Positions 5,082 to 34,839 of a stretch of 34,982 nucleotides of DNA are shown here, piece after piece. Position 1 is the stretch's first letter, and each line of letters begins with the position of its first letter. Origin of the DNA: a virus; the IMG/VR virus record IMGVR_UViG_3300046804_002202, positions 1 to 34,982 of that record; one strand, 5' to 3'. The position numbers and the translations under genes were made by a program. The notes under the pieces are model-generated. The model did no database searches. It saw only the letters and a list, made by a program, of their open reading frames with translations, and was not told where the DNA came from.

Positions 5082-5263
5082 GTGAAGGTTTTAGTGAAGA
5101 AAAGATTGAAGTTGCAATCAATAAGGATGAAGTAAAAAAACTTCTAAAAAAATATAAAAAAGTTAAAAAGTATATGAAGTCTCCTCTGTTTGCGGTTAAG
5201 ACTATGGATGGAAATGAGACATATGTGAGTGAACTATTAAAAGAAGCAGAGTGGAATGGGTAA
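5078..5263 (+). CDS. Small lysine-rich hypothetical protein
   Basis: This 61-residue protein starts by ATGA overlap with the preceding gene and overlaps speD by eight bases. It has a strongly basic central helix (KKLLKKYKKVKKYMK, about 20-34) followed by a short beta-like part (FAVKTMDGNETYV). The basic helix might bind nucleic acid or an acidic partner, but this is inference only. Double coupling to its neighbours supports it as a real gene. Confidence 0.6.
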   Translation: MSEGFSEEKIEVAINKDEVKKLLKKYKKVKKYMKSPLFAVKTMDGNETYVSELLKEAEWNG

Positions 5264-5582
5264 GCATTATCTTTTAAATTTGTATGGATGTTCGTTTGTT
5301 CTTTTGGACGACGAACGTTGTCTTATTGACTTATTAGAAAACGCAGCAGTTGCTAGTGGTGCTACTGTGGTTCAGACTATCTCAAAGAAGTTTGATCCAC
5401 AGGGAGTTACTGTAATTTGTCTTTTATCTGAAAGTCATATCAGTATTCATACATGGCCTGAAGAAGGTAAAGCAGCAGTAGATGTTTATACCTGTGGAGA
5501 TTGCAATCCAAAGATTGGATGTGACATTATCATTCAACAACTTTATGCAACTAATCACACACTAAGTTATATTGAAAGATAA
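5256..5582 (+). CDS. speD: S-adenosylmethionine decarboxylase proenzyme
   Basis: This 108-residue protein is a short bacterial-type AdoMet decarboxylase. It contains the self-cleavage sequence SESHISIHTWPE, where cleavage before S60 would create the pyruvoyl cofactor. H65 and C80 in VYTCGDC match the expected processing and catalytic residues. The enzyme makes decarboxylated AdoMet, the aminopropyl donor for spermidine, and speD is a known cyanophage auxiliary gene. Its start overlaps the previous gene by eight bases. A degenerate late box (GATAAATA) spans its last codons, just before the nested repeat module that controls the next gene. Confidence 0.93.
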   Translation: MGKHYLLNLYGCSFVLLDDERCLIDLLENAAVASGATVVQTISKKFDPQGVTVICLLSESHISIHTWPEEGKAAVDVYTCGDCNPKIGCDIIIQQLYATNHTLSYIER

Positions 5583-5590
5583 ATACTAAT

Positions 5591-5674
5591 GCTTAATCGT
5601 GGTTGTTTAAGCAAAAAGATTGGGGACAGAAATGTCCCTTTTCTTGTATAAATAAGTATAACCACGATTAAAGC
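5591..5674 (+). promoter_or_regulatory. Nested module A: long inverted repeat enclosing terminator and late promoter
   Basis: The left arm GCTTAATCGTGGTT (5591-5604) pairs with the right arm AACCACGATTAAAGC (5660-5674). Eleven bases (5594-5604 with 5660-5670) match perfectly and one A bulges further out. Between the arms lie a terminator (5623-5643) and a late promoter TATAAATA (5647-5654). The expected late start, about six bases after the box, is 5660, exactly the first base of the right arm. The right arm therefore forms the 5' leader of the GIY-YIG mRNA. The left arm can also fold on itself through TTAAGC at 5607-5612. Confidence 0.75.
5623..5643 (+). terminator. Rho-independent terminator after speD
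   Basis: GGGACA/TGTCCC (5623-5628 and 5633-5638) closes a GAAA tetraloop and is followed by TTTTCTT. It is nested inside inverted-repeat module A. Confidence 0.85.
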
Positions 5675-5677
5675 AGT

Positions 5678-6124
5678 ATGAATAACTATTACACTTACGC
5701 ATATTTGCGTGAAGACGGAACACCTTATTACATAGGTAAAGGAATAAACAATCGTGCTTACAAAGGAGATTGCAAGTCGGTAAAAGTTCCACCTAAAGAT
5801 AGAATACTTTTTTTGAAAACGGATTTAACTGAAGAAGATGCTTTTAAACACGAGATTTATATGATAAGCATTTTGGGTCGTAAGGATATTAAAACGGGTA
5901 TTTTAAGAAACTTAACTGATGGTGGGGAAGGTTTTTCTTCTAAACAAATGACTATTCTTTGGGAAAGGAGAAGAAAAAGAAAGTTGGAATTAGAAATAAA
6001 AAAGTGGAGAAAAGAATATGATAAAGGTGCTATTTGGAGAGAAAAGAATAGAGAAGTTTTTGATGTGCTGATAAAAAATGTTATTAGTAATAGAACATTT
6101 ATGTATAATAATGATACCATTTAG
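5678..6124 (+). CDS. GIY-YIG free-standing endonuclease
   Basis: The 148-residue protein opens with [19 protein letters not shown] (about 4-22), a GIY-YIG nuclease core. An [13 protein letters not shown] segment carries the expected glutamate, and [11 protein letters not shown] completes the domain. The C-terminal half is lysine/arginine-rich and helical and probably binds DNA. It follows nested module A, so it is expected to be expressed late. It interrupts the early gene array between speD and the 6204 gene, as expected for a mobile free-standing endonuclease. Confidence 0.82.
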
Positions 6125-6410: not shown

Positions 6411-6496
6411 ATAGGACGGAAGTAAGCCGACGCGGAACGGATCGTTCATTCGCTATTCGCAAATAGCGAACGCAAACGCCGACTGAAGGAACGCTC
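6411..6496 (+). ncRNA. Glutamine-riboswitch-like RNA element (glnA/Downstream-peptide type hallmarks)
   Basis: The segment between the 68-residue ORF and the DUF4278-like ORF is GC-rich and structured. It contains GGACGGAAGTAAG (6414-6426), GGAACGG (6434-6440), CGTTCATT (6443-6450), a nine-base-pair hairpin TTCGCTATT/AATAGCGAA (6449-6457 and 6462-6470) and GAAGGAACGC (6485-6494). CGTTCA, GACGGAAGTA and GAAGGAACGC are signatures I recall for the glutamine-binding glnA and Downstream-peptide RNAs of cyanobacteria and their phages. Their order here is not standard: the GACGGAAGTA part comes before the internal CGTTCA, while another CGTTCATCC lies at 6194-6202, upstream of the ORF. No T tract follows, so control would be translational or by another route. 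Confidence 0.55.
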
Positions 6497-6525
6497 TTTA
6501 ACTTAAAAAACTAAGGAGAAACCTA

Positions 6526-7812: not shown

Positions 7813-8061
7813 TTGGCAACATATCCTGTGATCAATAAAGAAACTGGCGAACAAAAAGAAGTTACAATGAGTGTTCATGATTGGGACCAGTGGAAAAAAG
7901 ATAATCCAGAATGGGATAGAGATTGGAGTGATCCTTCAACGTGCCCTAATTCCGGAGAAGTTGGAGAAATCTATGATAGACTTAAGAAGTCACATCCAGG
8001 ATGGAATGATGTTCTTCGCAAAGCATCAAAGGCACCAGGTTCAAAAGTAAAACCAATTTGA
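7813..8061 (+). CDS. Small FmdB-like hypothetical protein without zinc ribbon
   Basis: The 82-residue protein begins with ATYPVINKETGEQKEVTMSV, a pattern like the N terminus of FmdB-type small phage proteins, and ends with WNDVLRKASKAPGSK. The CxxC pairs of a zinc ribbon are missing; only one cysteine is present. The start is a TTG supported by a strong GGAGGA at 7801-7806, and no ATG is better placed. It lies six bases upstream of phoH, so the two are probably co-transcribed. The function is unknown. Confidence 0.7.
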   Translation: MATYPVINKETGEQKEVTMSVHDWDQWKKDNPEWDRDWSDPSTCPNSGEVGEIYDRLKKSHPGWNDVLRKASKAPGSKVKPI

Positions 8062-11925: not shown

Positions 11926-12867
11926 ATGTCATTCGAAAATCTTAAGAAGCAATCTAAACTTGGTTCTCTAACTTCTAAACTTGTAAAAGAAGTTGAAAAA
12001 ATGAATGCTACATCTAATAGTGTTGATGAAAGGATGTGGCGTCCCGAGATGGATAAAACAGGAAACGGTTTTGCAGTAATCCGTTTCCTGCCTGCTCCCG
12101 AAGGAGAAGATGTTCCCTGGGCAAAAATGTACTCTCATGGTTTCCAAGGTCCTGGTGGTTGGTATATTGAAAACTCTCTGACAACTCTGAGTCAGAAAGA
12201 TCCTGTATCCGAACACAATCGCAAACTGTGGAACAGTGGTAGCGATAAGGATAAAGAAACTGTTCGCAAGCAAAAGCGTAAACTGTCTTATTACAGCAAT
12301 ATCTACGTTGTAAAAGATCCTACAAATCCACAAAACGAAGGTAAGGTCTTCCTCTTCAAGTATGGTAAGAAGATCTTTGATAAGATTATGGAAGCAATGC
12401 AACCTGAGTTTGAGGATGAAACTCCTATTAATCCTTTTGACTTCTGGCAGGGTGCTAATTTCAAACTCAAAATCGTTAAGAAAGATGGGTATTGGAACTA
12501 CGACAAGTCAGAATTTGGTTCTGTTGAACCACTACTGGATGATGACGATGCTCTGGAAGCCATCTGGAAGAAAGAGTATTCTCTGGCAGCAGTAACTGCT
12601 CCTGATCAATTCAAGTCCTATGAAGAACTTGATGCACGTCTGAATGCTGTTCTTGGTCTTCAGACTCCTACTCGCTCTCGTGCTGTAGTTGAACAGGAAG
12701 ATGATCTTGAAGAGTATACACAAACTCCTACTGTTCAAGATCGTGTGGTAGAAGAACTGGAACAATCTTATGCTCGTTCCAAGTCTCCTTCACTGCCGAC
12801 TATCACTTCTTCTGATGAGGATGAAGATGATGCTCTTGCATATTTTTCTCGCCTAGCAAATGACTAA
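11926..12867 (+). CDS. 32: Single-stranded DNA-binding protein gp32
   Basis: The 313-residue protein follows T4 gp32 in layout. The basic N terminus (SFENLKKQSKLGSLTSKLVKEVEK) is for cooperativity. The core contains GWYIEN and KRKLSYYSNIYVVKDPTNPQNEGKV-like blocks that bind DNA. The acidic C-terminal tail (SSDEDEDDALAYFSRLAND) recruits replication proteins. The zinc cysteines and the CPVC motif of T4 gp32 are absent; the protein has no cysteine at all. It coats single-stranded DNA in replication and recombination, matching the gp59 gene nearby. A strong Shine-Dalgarno-like AAAGG lies upstream. The 3' end is followed by nested module B. Confidence 0.95.
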   Translation: MSFENLKKQSKLGSLTSKLVKEVEKMNATSNSVDERMWRPEMDKTGNGFAVIRFLPAPEGEDVPWAKMYSHGFQGPGGWYIENSLTTLSQKDPVSEHNRKLWNSGSDKDKETVRKQKRKLSYYSNIYVVKDPTNPQNEGKVFLFKYGKKIFDKIMEAMQPEFEDETPINPFDFWQGANFKLKIVKKDGYWNYDKSEFGSVEPLLDDDDALEAIWKKEYSLAAVTAPDQFKSYEELDARLNAVLGLQTPTRSRAVVEQEDDLEEYTQTPTVQDRVVEELEQSYARSKSPSLPTITSSDEDEDDALAYFSRLAND

Positions 12868-12877
12868 ATAACTAAAC

Positions 12878-12953
12878 CTATAAGGTCGCACTTAAGGTGG
12901 AAAGGGTGTCTTCGGGCACCTTTTCTTGTATAAATAGTATTGCGACTTTATAG
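12878..12953 (+). promoter_or_regulatory. Nested module B: inverted repeat enclosing terminator and late promoter
   Basis: The left arm CTATAAGGTCGCA (12878-12890) pairs with TGCGACTTTATAG (12941-12953) over 13 positions with a single G-U pair. Inside are a terminator (12902-12924) and a perfect TATAAATA (12929-12936). The expected late start near 12942 coincides with the start of the right arm. An ACTAAATA (12863-12870) also precedes the left arm by eight bases. The leader ends TAGAGTAGAACTATG, shared exactly with module C. Confidence 0.78.
12902..12924 (+). terminator. Rho-independent terminator after gp32
   Basis: GGTGTC/GGCACC (12905-12910 and 12915-12920, one G-U pair) closes a TTCG tetraloop; flanking AAG and TTTT extend the stem and provide the T tract. 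It is nested in module B. Confidence 0.85.
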
Positions 12954-12962
12954 AGTAGAACT

Positions 12963-13580
12963 ATGGAAACTCCAAGAGAGTATTACTATACCTATTATTC
13001 CTATGAGGAATACGGTAAAGGATATTTTGGTTCAAGAACTTGTGAATGTTTACCTGAAGAAGACATAAAATATTTTGGTTCATTTAAAGACAAACAATTT
13101 AAACCAACACAAAAGATAATACTTAAAGATGATTATTCTACAAGAGAGGAAGCATATGCTGATGAGATTATTTTACAAGAGCACTATAAAGTAGTAGAAA
13201 ATCCTCACTTTGCAAACAGAGCATATCAAACTTCTACTGGATTTAGTAGAAAAGGTATGGTTCCTCATAATAAAGGACATAAAATGTCTTTAGAGCAAAG
13301 AAAAAAGTTGAGCGATATTTGTAAAGGAAGAAAAGTAAATGAAGAAACTAAACAAAAAATAAGCAAATCTACTAAGGGAAGAGTATTAACTGAAGAGCAT
13401 AAAAGAAAAATAGCAGAAGCAAATAAAGGAAAGTCAAGGCAAACTAAAGAAGGTTTGGAAAGATTTAAAAATATCCAAAAAGAAAGAAAAGGAAAACCTG
13501 GAAAAAAACACTCAGAAGAAACTAAAAAGAAAATAAGCGAAGCGACAAAAGGAAGAATTCCTTGGAATAAAAAAGTTTAG
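12963..13580 (+). CDS. GIY-YIG-like endonuclease with NUMOD3 repeats
   Basis: The 205-residue protein has an N-terminal region YYYTYYSYEEYGKGYFGSR (about 7-25) resembling a divergent GIY-YIG core, followed by YFGSF and an EEAYADEIILQ segment that could carry the catalytic glutamate. From about residue 95 on it is made of NUMOD3-type DNA-binding repeats (KGHKMSLEQRKKLSDICKG, EETKQKISKSTKGR, EEHKRKIAEANKGK, EETKKKISEATKGR). It follows nested module B. Its stop overlaps the end of the convergent gp53 gene by four bases, so it sits exactly at the gp32-gp53 junction. Confidence 0.75.
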   Translation: METPREYYYTYYSYEEYGKGYFGSRTCECLPEEDIKYFGSFKDKQFKPTQKIILKDDYSTREEAYADEIILQEHYKVVENPHFANRAYQTSTGFSRKGMVPHNKGHKMSLEQRKKLSDICKGRKVNEETKQKISKSTKGRVLTEEHKRKIAEANKGKSRQTKEGLERFKNIQKERKGKPGKKHSEETKKKISEATKGRIPWNKKV

Positions 13581-28278: not shown

Positions 28279-29256
28279 ATGGCAGGAGTAGGTAATTTCT
28301 TAGTAGGTGGTCAATTTCAAGTTACTGCAAACCTTCCTGGAGGAACTCCAGGACTTCCCGCTGCAGTTTTAGGTGGTGGAGCAGGAATTCCGCCAATTAA
28401 TGGAAGTGCTTGGATCGAAGGTCCAATGCTTGTTGGTTCTCCAATTTCTTATCCAACACCAGGAAAACCTGAAGCAACTTTAATGGTCGGTAGATCTAAA
28501 AATCCTACCTCACCTACATCTGCAGCAGGACCAATTGTAAAAATTACAAGTAGAGGATCTGCACCAACTCCTCTTGATGTAATAATTGGAGATACTACGG
28601 GTCCTGTTGGTCTTAGTGGTGTCAATCAAGTTATAAACATTAGAGTTCTCACTAAGACTTCTTATACTTCACCAACAACTGATTGTGTTGGAAATTTAAA
28701 ATGGACCGGAAAAGTAGATGTTTTAGGAGAAACTTCTTTTACTGGTAGAAGTATTACTACCGGAAAGAAAACCATTAATGGAATGACAACTATTAATGGA
28801 TTGTTAGATGTTAGTGGTGCAATTCGAAGTCCCACTATTGATTTGTTGAAAGCAAAAATTTCAAGTAAAAAAGGATTTGATATTCAACATCCAACTAAAA
28901 AAGATCATAGACTTCGTTATATTTGTATTGAAGGTCCTGCAGCAGAAGTATATTTGAGAGGAAAACTCAAAGATAGTAATGCTATTATTCTTCCAGATTA
29001 TTGGAAAGACCTAGTTGATATTGAAACTATTGGAGTTAATTTGACATCAATTGGTGTTTATCAAGAACTTTTTGTTGAAAAGGTTGAATGGGGTTCACGT
29101 ATTATAGTTAAAAATAATTTAGGTGGACCTATTAATTGCGACTTCGTTGTATTTGCAGAAAGAAAAGATTCTGAAAAAAATATTTCAGAATACAAAGGAT
29201 TGACACCAGCAGACTATCCAGGCGATAATAGTGAATATACGATTAATGGTAATTGA
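28279..29256 (+). CDS. Tail spike/fibre-like structural protein with C-terminal fibre domain
   Basis: The 325-residue protein starts with a Gly/Pro-rich low-complexity region (about 1-60) resembling a tip protein, then beta repeats (TTGKKTINGMTTINGLLDVS). A C-terminal domain of about residues 196-300 begins KKGFDIQHPTKKDHRLRYI and includes LPDYWKDLVDIETIGVNL and FVVFAERKD. The same domain occurs alone in the gene at 31315. AGGAGG (about 28269-28274) provides a strong ribosome site. It is probably on the baseplate or fibre, but its exact place is not known. Confidence 0.7.
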   Translation: MAGVGNFLVGGQFQVTANLPGGTPGLPAAVLGGGAGIPPINGSAWIEGPMLVGSPISYPTPGKPEATLMVGRSKNPTSPTSAAGPIVKITSRGSAPTPLDVIIGDTTGPVGLSGVNQVINIRVLTKTSYTSPTTDCVGNLKWTGKVDVLGETSFTGRSITTGKKTINGMTTINGLLDVSGAIRSPTIDLLKAKISSKKGFDIQHPTKKDHRLRYICIEGPAAEVYLRGKLKDSNAIILPDYWKDLVDIETIGVNLTSIGVYQELFVEKVEWGSRIIVKNNLGGPINCDFVVFAERKDSEKNISEYKGLTPADYPGDNSEYTINGN

Positions 29257-33100: not shown

Positions 33101-33117
33101 TAACTAAATAATAGTAC

Positions 33118-33190
33118 CTGAATGACGGCAATCTTCAGGGGAGGGTGAAAGACCCTCCTTTTTAATATAAATAATAGTGCCGTCATTTAG
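33118..33190 (+). promoter_or_regulatory. Nested module C: inverted repeat enclosing terminator and late promoter
   Basis: The left arm CTGAATGACGGCA (33118-33130) pairs with TGCCGTCATTTAG (33178-33190) over 13 positions with one G-U pair at the same relative position as in module B. Between them are a terminator (33140-33163) and TATAAATA (33166-33173). The expected late start near 33179 coincides with the right arm. ACTAAATA (33103-33110) precedes the left arm. The 15 bases TAGAGTAGAACTATG (33188-33202) are identical to those in module B. Confidence 0.78.
33140..33163 (+). terminator. Rho-independent terminator after tRNA-Thr
   Basis: GGAGGGT/ACCCTCC (33140-33146 and 33152-33158) closes a GAAAG loop, followed by TTTTT to 33163. 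It is nested in module C. Confidence 0.9.
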
Positions 33191-33199
33191 AGTAGAACT

Positions 33200-33817
33200 A
33201 TGCCAAATTGGTCACAGGAAGGATTTCAGCGTATAATTGATGCTGGAAAAAGAAGTGCTTTGATTTCCAAAGAAAGGTCTAAAAAACTTCAAGAAGAGTA
33301 TTATAAAAATCCAAAATTGTGTTTAAATTGCAAAACTATAATATCTTATGAGAAAAAATTATCTAACAAATATTGTTGTCGTTCTTGTTCAATACAAGTA
33401 AATAATAGAAAAAGAACAAAATCAGTTGAGAAGAATTGCCTTCACTGCAATAACATATTAGGAAAATCTGCAATTAAATTTTGTTCTAATAAATGCCAAA
33501 GAGAATATGAATATTCTCAAAGAGTTTCTATGTGGGTAAATGGGAATTATTCCATAAAATCAAGAGATTTTTTTAGAAGATACCTAACAGAAACACAAGG
33601 ATATAAGTGCTCTTGTTGTAATATAAGTGAATGGAATGGAAAATTAATTGTTTTAGAAATAGACCATATAGATGGAAACTCTGATAATAATAGACCAGAA
33701 AACTTAAGGTTTATCTGCCCAAATTGCCATTCACAAACTGATACATACAAAGCAAGAAATATGGGCAAAGGAAGACATTATAGGAGAGAACGATATGCTG
33801 CTGGACAAAGTTACTAA
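33200..33817 (+). CDS. HNH free-standing endonuclease with zinc fingers
   Basis: The 205-residue protein has two N-terminal CxxC...Cxx(x)C zinc-ribbon-like units (C41/C44 with C59/C63, and C80/C83 with C95/C99). A C-terminal HNH domain follows: YKCSCCNIS (C137, C140), LEIDHIDGNSDNNRPENLR (D155, H156) and ICPNCHSQTDTY (C173, C176, H177). The HNH domain is closely related to that of the 32238 gene. It follows tRNA-Thr and module C, so it is probably expressed late. Confidence 0.85.
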   Translation: MPNWSQEGFQRIIDAGKRSALISKERSKKLQEEYYKNPKLCLNCKTIISYEKKLSNKYCCRSCSIQVNNRKRTKSVEKNCLHCNNILGKSAIKFCSNKCQREYEYSQRVSMWVNGNYSIKSRDFFRRYLTETQGYKCSCCNISEWNGKLIVLEIDHIDGNSDNNRPENLRFICPNCHSQTDTYKARNMGKGRHYRRERYAAGQSY

Positions 33818-34185: not shown

Positions 34186-34839
34186 ATGAAAAGTGAGTAT
34201 TTTATAGATAAGGTAGGTAAAGAAGAAATCAAAGATCTTCTTTATACCTATCATTATCTTAAAGACGAATCAAAGGATTTTAAAAGTGGATATAACTACT
34301 CACTTTACCGCAACTCATTCACAGATATCCTTAATATTGGCGGGTGTCTTGGTGCTTGCATTTTTACTAATATCCCAGTTCCAGAAATCGCAGTAGGTGC
34401 ATTTGGTTTAGAAAGAAACCAGCAAGAAGGAATATACGAATTATCAAGACTTTGTATACATCCAGATATTCAAAAAGAAGAGTATAATATCACATCTTGG
34501 TTCGTCAGTCGTTGCATAAGGAGATTTAGAAAAGATGCCCGCGTTCGTGCTATTCTTAGTTACGCTGACAATAATCACCACACTGGAATTATATACAGAG
34601 CTTGCAATTTTCAATACTATGGTTTGACTGATAAGAAATGTGATTTTTGGATTAAACAATCTGATGGATCATTCATCAAACACTCAAGAGGTCCTATCAA
34701 AGGATTGGAAGGAGAATGGAGAGAAAGAAGTAGAAAGCATAGATACTTAATGATCTTTGATAAGGAACTGAAGAAAAAGTTGACATGGAAAGAAGAGAAG
34801 TGGTATAATAAACAAGACGATACTGAATCGTTACAGTGA
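34186..34839 (+). CDS. Mom-like GNAT-fold DNA modification protein
   Basis: The 217-residue protein has the pattern of phage Mu Mom and its relatives: YHYLKD near the N terminus, GGCLGACIFTNIPVPE, YELSRLCIHPD (84-94), SWFVSRCIR (104-112), and SYADNNHHTGIIYRACNFQYYG (about 125-146). Mom modifies adenine in phage DNA (carbamoylmethylation) and protects it from restriction enzymes, using a GNAT-like fold and metal. Here it could protect phage DNA from host restriction. The protein is followed by module D. The family match is by eye. Confidence 0.72.
   Translation: MKSEYFIDKVGKEEIKDLLYTYHYLKDESKDFKSGYNYSLYRNSFTDILNIGGCLGACIFTNIPVPEIAVGAFGLERNQQEGIYELSRLCIHPDIQKEEYNITSWFVSRCIRRFRKDARVRAILSYADNNHHTGIIYRACNFQYYGLTDKKCDFWIKQSDGSFIKHSRGPIKGLEGEWRERSRKHRYLMIFDKELKKKLTWKEEKWYNKQDDTESLQ

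Follow-up and report, generated by a model that had tools for sequence, protein, structure and literature searches.

What does a long inverted repeat do when it encloses a terminator and a late promoter in front of a putative homing endonuclease gene? The question is raised by the sequence of a cyanobacterial virus (IMG/VR record IMGVR_UViG_3300046804_002202), whose 34,982 nucleotides form the window analysed here. The initial annotation read the repeat as a cis-acting lock, in which RNA reading through from the upstream gene speD would pair both arms and close the ribosome site, while late RNA would start with a free arm. We examined which RNAs the two arms are likely to belong to, and what their pairing may control.

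Two predicted late transcription units precede the endonuclease gene

All parts of the locus, which we call module A, lie on the + strand. The upstream gene, speD (5256-5582; Pfam AdoMet_dc, E 8e-35), ends in a TAA stop codon that is also part of a left late promoter, GATAAATA (5578-5585), which obeys the base rule of late genes. After 5 nt comes a 22-nt hairpin, GCTTAATCGTGGTTGTTTAAGC (5591-5612), whose 5' strand and loop hold the left arm, GCTTAATCGTGGTT (5591-5604); the first base of this arm is the predicted start of the left promoter. An intrinsic terminator (5622-5646; stem 5622-5638, tail TTTTCTTG) sits between the arms and is followed by the right late promoter, TATAAATA (5647-5654), and, again after 5 nt, by the 18-nt leader of the endonuclease mRNA, AACCACGATTAAAGCAGT (5660-5677), predicted to start at 5660. 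The right arm, AACCACGATTAAAGC (5660-5674), begins exactly at this predicted late start, as had been proposed, and the ATG stands at 5678. The leader is, for the most part, the reverse complement of the 5' strand and loop of the hairpin, with one extra A. The left half is thus predicted to be a complete small gene, made of a late promoter, a 5' hairpin with an antisense loop and an intrinsic terminator; its product would be a small RNA (sRNA) of about 55 nt (5591-5646; MFE -21.6 kcal/mol, z -4.9). This left unit lies upstream of its target on the same strand, unlike antisense RNAs of the CfrI type, which are encoded on the opposite strand.

The structure exceeds chance. The region folds at -37.2 kcal/mol (z = -6.3; equalled by 0 of 200 shuffles), and the arm helix on its own was matched by 2 of 20,000 shuffles. 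When 5578-5700 is folded in cis, the arms pair and, within the longer RNA, the 3' arm masks the region where translation starts. The arms, terminator, TATAAATA and leader of the initial annotation were all recovered where it had placed them; the left promoter, the local hairpin at 5591-5612 and two further modules in the window were absent from it.

Its call of a GIY-YIG gene also held. The gene (5678-6124) encodes 148 aa and carries the complete GIY-YIG residue set (Y, Y, G, R, E, N), with Y7, Y18, G20, R26, E59 and N78 invariant or nearly so among relatives. No Pfam model matched the protein at E 0.001 or better, the GIY-YIG match among PDB profiles was weak (E 0.027), and the AlphaFold model was poor (mean pLDDT 55) and unfit for structure search. 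Judged by the conserved residues, the product is GIY-YIG-like and a putative homing endonuclease; late expression, as first suggested, is its likely setting.

The two further modules, also on the + strand, show the part order of module A with unrelated arm sequences. Module B (12864-12962) is placed after gp32 and comprises CTAAATA (12864-12870), a predicted sRNA from 12876, a terminator to ~12928, TATAAATA (12929-12936) and a leader (12942-12962), ahead of an endonuclease-like gene with a NUMOD3 match (12963-13580). Module C (33104-33199), located after a tRNA gene, comprises CTAAATA (33104-33110), a predicted sRNA from 33116, a terminator stem (33140-33158), TATAAATA (33166-33173) and a leader (33179-33199), ahead of an HNH endonuclease gene (HNH_3; 33200-33817). 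An Rfam scan of the window returned only tRNAs above gathering score; matches at 5500-5720 fell far below gathering scores, and there were none in the loci L306, L208 and L343.

The arms covary from the predicted mRNA start

Modules were gathered from IMG/VR relatives of the endonuclease, from a pattern scan and from the isolates S-SRM01, B23 and S-B68; once near-duplicates were removed, 123 modules were analysed. The pattern scan selected only a terminator tail followed by TATAAATA, and neither the arms nor an upstream promoter, which makes it an unbiased set; together with the permutation test it carries the weight of the argument, and neither arm diversity nor the covariation edge described below is built into the choice of modules. 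Among its 63 non-redundant sites, 54 (86%) reached an arm helix score of at least 20, versus 11.7% when leaders were swapped. Hits in RB69, an E. coli phage, and in ACG-2014e show a terminator plus promoter between other genes, with no annotated endonuclease module, and were excluded from the count.

Of the 123 modules, 97-100% have a pair at each of bases 6-13 counted from the right TAAATA, the 100% at bases 6-11 being partly by construction, since modules were chosen for a contiguous helix near the promoter. At each of these positions three to six standard pair types occur (permutation z 12-14), and the 123 modules hold 52 different seed 8-mers. A leader and its own left arm form a duplex with a median of -20.4 kcal/mol, compared with -9.1 kcal/mol for swapped pairs. 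Arm pairing is under selection: in homologous loci the arms change together, whereas the initial annotation had named uncompensated changes as a result that would speak against its own reading. That the repeat instead acts as DNA, either as a protein-binding operator or as an insertion scar, is extremely improbable. I-TevI does act on an operator to repress the late promoter of its own gene (PMC2988022), and autorepression by the endonuclease would be the parallel here; the arms, however, are imperfect (a bulged A) and contain G-U pairs, they vary far more than the signals adjoining them, and the left arm is always part of an RNA hairpin that directly follows a promoter.

The covariation has a sharp edge. 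Counted from the right TAAATA, bases 1-4 show none (z -3.6 to 1.8), and base 5 shows a slight signal that adds little beyond composition (0.87 vs 0.82); covariation is strong from base 6 (z 11-14), which is the predicted first base of the mRNA. From there the duplex extends from leader base 1 to base 12-20 and, with few exceptions, stops 1-5 nt short of the ATG. An edge at the mRNA +1 points to a separate RNA, since a read-through stem formed in cis has no evident reason to stop there; the argument is somewhat weakened because the spacer is itself conserved in sequence.

A predicted upstream late promoter is coupled to the arms

An upstream TAAATA is present in 54/54 arm-bearing sites of the pattern scan and in 1/9 armless ones; no recognisable endonuclease gene was found downstream of the armless sites. 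The base before this TAAATA is A or C (0.68/0.32) and never G or T, base 5 after it is T (0.97), and base 6, the predicted +1, is a purine (0.99). The A/C rule also applies to the structural genes of S-SRM01 (0.83/0.14), which mostly have A at base 6, and in S-PM2 the late promoter has been described as NATAAATA (PMC2984593). Same-strand [AC]TAAATA pairs 60-90 nt apart occur six times in S-SRM01, and these are exactly its six modules. We rejected the idea that the upstream TAAATA is a remnant of the host gene, because five module-free speD 3' ends carry no such motif at the stop codon. We also discarded a fixed insertion at the stop codon as a general rule, since the TAA of TAAATA is the upstream stop in only 30/114 modules; in the remainder the upstream stop is nearby, or no long frame was seen.

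The RNA predicted from this promoter begins with a hairpin and is closed by a terminator. Its length would be 51-59 nt in 110/123 modules, its 5' stem begins at the predicted +1 in 96/123, and its seed is unpaired at a level of 0.69, compared with 0.34 overall. Compared with swapped controls, the local hairpin has only a moderate advantage, since members of a family have a stem consensus in common.

These features bear directly on the reading of the initial annotation, in which pairing of the arms is confined to cis, within early or middle read-through RNA from speD, where it hides the start, and the late RNA from 5660 is translated. The cis fold is stable (z -6.3), and the arrangement is that of T4 e, soc, I-TevI and segB and of Aeh1 mobE, where the start site is hidden in longer RNAs and free in late RNA (PMC2988022, PMC3014915). 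The late promoter does lie between the arms, in module A as in the 123 modules, so that late RNA lacks the 5' arm. A cis hairpin can thus form, and this part of the proposal stood. As the main role of the arms it is poorly supported. The left arm follows a conserved late promoter at a distance of 5 nt, the long stem has to compete with a local hairpin, the terminator would remove most of the read-through RNA, and the covariation stops at +1. Pairing in cis alone leaves both this edge and the upstream promoter of the 54 arm-bearing sites unexplained, and we consider it rather unlikely.

A second design, found at 38 further sites, provides an internal contrast to the 123 modules and fits the cis model better. 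Here a hairpin, GTGGGCAGCAAC-loop-GTTGCGTAAGTCCCAC, is followed by a weak T tail, then by TATAAATA and by a right arm reaching the ATG, as in L306 (~7860-7990), L339 and L213 of S-SRM01 (~28870-28970), with L003 of Sf-CH5 similar. The left arm sits in the apical loop, which pairs with the leader up to the AUG, and the hairpin has a conserved asymmetric internal loop (CA / GTAAGT). An upstream TAAATA occurs in only 7/38 of these sites, and pairing mostly begins 5-7 nt inside the mRNA. These sites look as the cis reading would have them, lacking the upstream promoter.

Modules accompany endonuclease genes in the loci examined

Among cultured phages, modules occur in S-SRM01 (six, near 18.0, 48.5, 51.3, 56.0, 62.5 and 192.5 kb), in B23 (L001) and in S-B68 (L208), where the module lies between DNA polymerase and uvsX. 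In the loci examined, the genes behind modules are endonuclease-like: 63 of the 115 scanned proteins match NUMOD3, others match GIY-YIG, HNH, HNH_3 or I-HmuI-like models, and a GIY-YIG motif is found in 72 of the proteins scanned.

This type of endonuclease is annotated 'translation initiation factor 2' in MW015081.1 (62515-63273), MN695335.1 (gp45) and PV340852.1 (SfCH5_200), a label that is probably a misannotation. At 51291 of MW015081.1, the annotated GTG start of QPX48040.1 falls inside the module terminator, before the late promoter is reached; translation probably begins at the ATG that follows the leader.

A tandem antisense RNA as the likely control of endonuclease genes

We think it likely, on comparative sequence grounds, that these endonuclease genes are controlled by a tandem antisense sRNA encoded on their own strand. 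Module A would then consist of two back-to-back late transcription units. Transcription of the first, from GATAAATA with a start at 5591 and a terminator end near 5646, would yield the small RNA of ~55 nt, whose 5' hairpin would display a loop with complementarity to the endonuclease mRNA leader; the second, from TATAAATA with a start at 5660, would yield that mRNA. Pairing in trans would cover almost all of the leader, from base 1 up to 1-5 nt short of the AUG, and would keep ribosomes off, which would restrict the endonuclease to late synthesis at a low level. As a fail-safe, the two arms would lock any read-through RNA in cis, and the antisense and cis modes may both act.

An sRNA of this kind could have another main role, incompatibility or immunity, in which it would act on co-infecting phages, silencing those of their endonuclease genes that share its seed class, rather than set the level of its own gene. 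Unrelated contigs share seed classes (a score of 20 is reached by 8.7% of between-locus pairs), and the 52 different seeds suggest diversification. One orphan left unit, at ~3010-3120 of L204, retains promoter, hairpin, terminator and TATAAATA and lacks a complementary leader; the gene that follows does not resemble an endonuclease, as if the endonuclease had gone. This orphan is nevertheless single, own-gene leaders match perfectly, and no orthogonality appears within genomes: in the seven genomes with several modules, a test that had no power gave strong cross pairs in 0/88 comparisons within genomes vs 7/614 between them. The seeds found together in one genome do not differ significantly more from each other than those of different genomes do, and selection for specificity in trans is thus unsupported by the seed comparison. 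We regard a main role in co-infection as quite improbable. A broader picture combines it with control of the own gene: a large, fast-diversifying family of antisense sRNAs, one per homing endonuclease gene, would set the endonuclease level and also act as an incompatibility system between co-infecting phages, so that only elements of other seed classes can home. This extension is speculative, and we hold it to be doubtful.

If control by a tandem antisense sRNA is correct, selfish endonuclease genes carry their own RNA brake, whatever the type of endonuclease, and two late promoters ~65-71 nt apart would mark such genes. The candidate sRNA family offers more than 100 natural covarying variants and is present in cultured cyanophages.

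Relation to known systems

The c4 RNA is encoded upstream of its target on the same strand, exposes hairpin loops complementary to the translation start region of that target, and is cut from the transcript that it shares with it. The modules resemble it in having an upstream, same-strand antisense unit with a loop directed against the translation start region; they differ in that this unit has its own promoter and terminator and that the target is a homing endonuclease. Phage antisense RNAs include c4 of P1 and P7 and the small sar RNA of P22 (68/69 nt) and OOP RNA of lambda (77 nt) (PMC12197685). The targets and phages of sar and OOP are different, and neither is a module recurring with one class of mobile genes. 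Closer in its setting is CfrI of cyanophage S-PM2, an RNA of ~225 nt antisense to psbA and to the endonuclease gene F-CphI (PMC2984593, PMC12197685). It is likewise an antisense RNA of a T4-like cyanophage adjoining a homing endonuclease gene, whereas the RNA predicted here is ~55 nt long, lies on the same strand and forms an imperfect repeat with a short seed.

With the late-restricting hairpins of T4 and with Aeh1 mobE, the modules share a late promoter inside an inverted repeat and a longer RNA that hides the ribosome site, and several targets of the hairpins of T4-like phages are homing endonucleases, as here. Unlike the T4 hairpins, the modules add a second late promoter ahead of the left arm, together with a local hairpin and a terminator, and they covary from the +1 of the late mRNA. 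In the open-access literature searched, we found no account of a tandem antisense unit travelling with homing endonuclease genes, an absence that is weak evidence. For T4 itself, PMC3014915 states that no small trans-acting regulatory RNA had been functionally characterized, and its authors hoped for candidates from related genomes.

Two other stretches of the window were noted. At 6441-6497, a match to the glutamine riboswitch (glnA leader, RF01739) falls narrowly short of the gathering score of 35, with 33.1 bits, and the stretch is conserved in many cyanophages. At 34186-34839, a gene encodes a Mom-like protein (PF25680, E 2e-19) and is a possible DNA modification gene.
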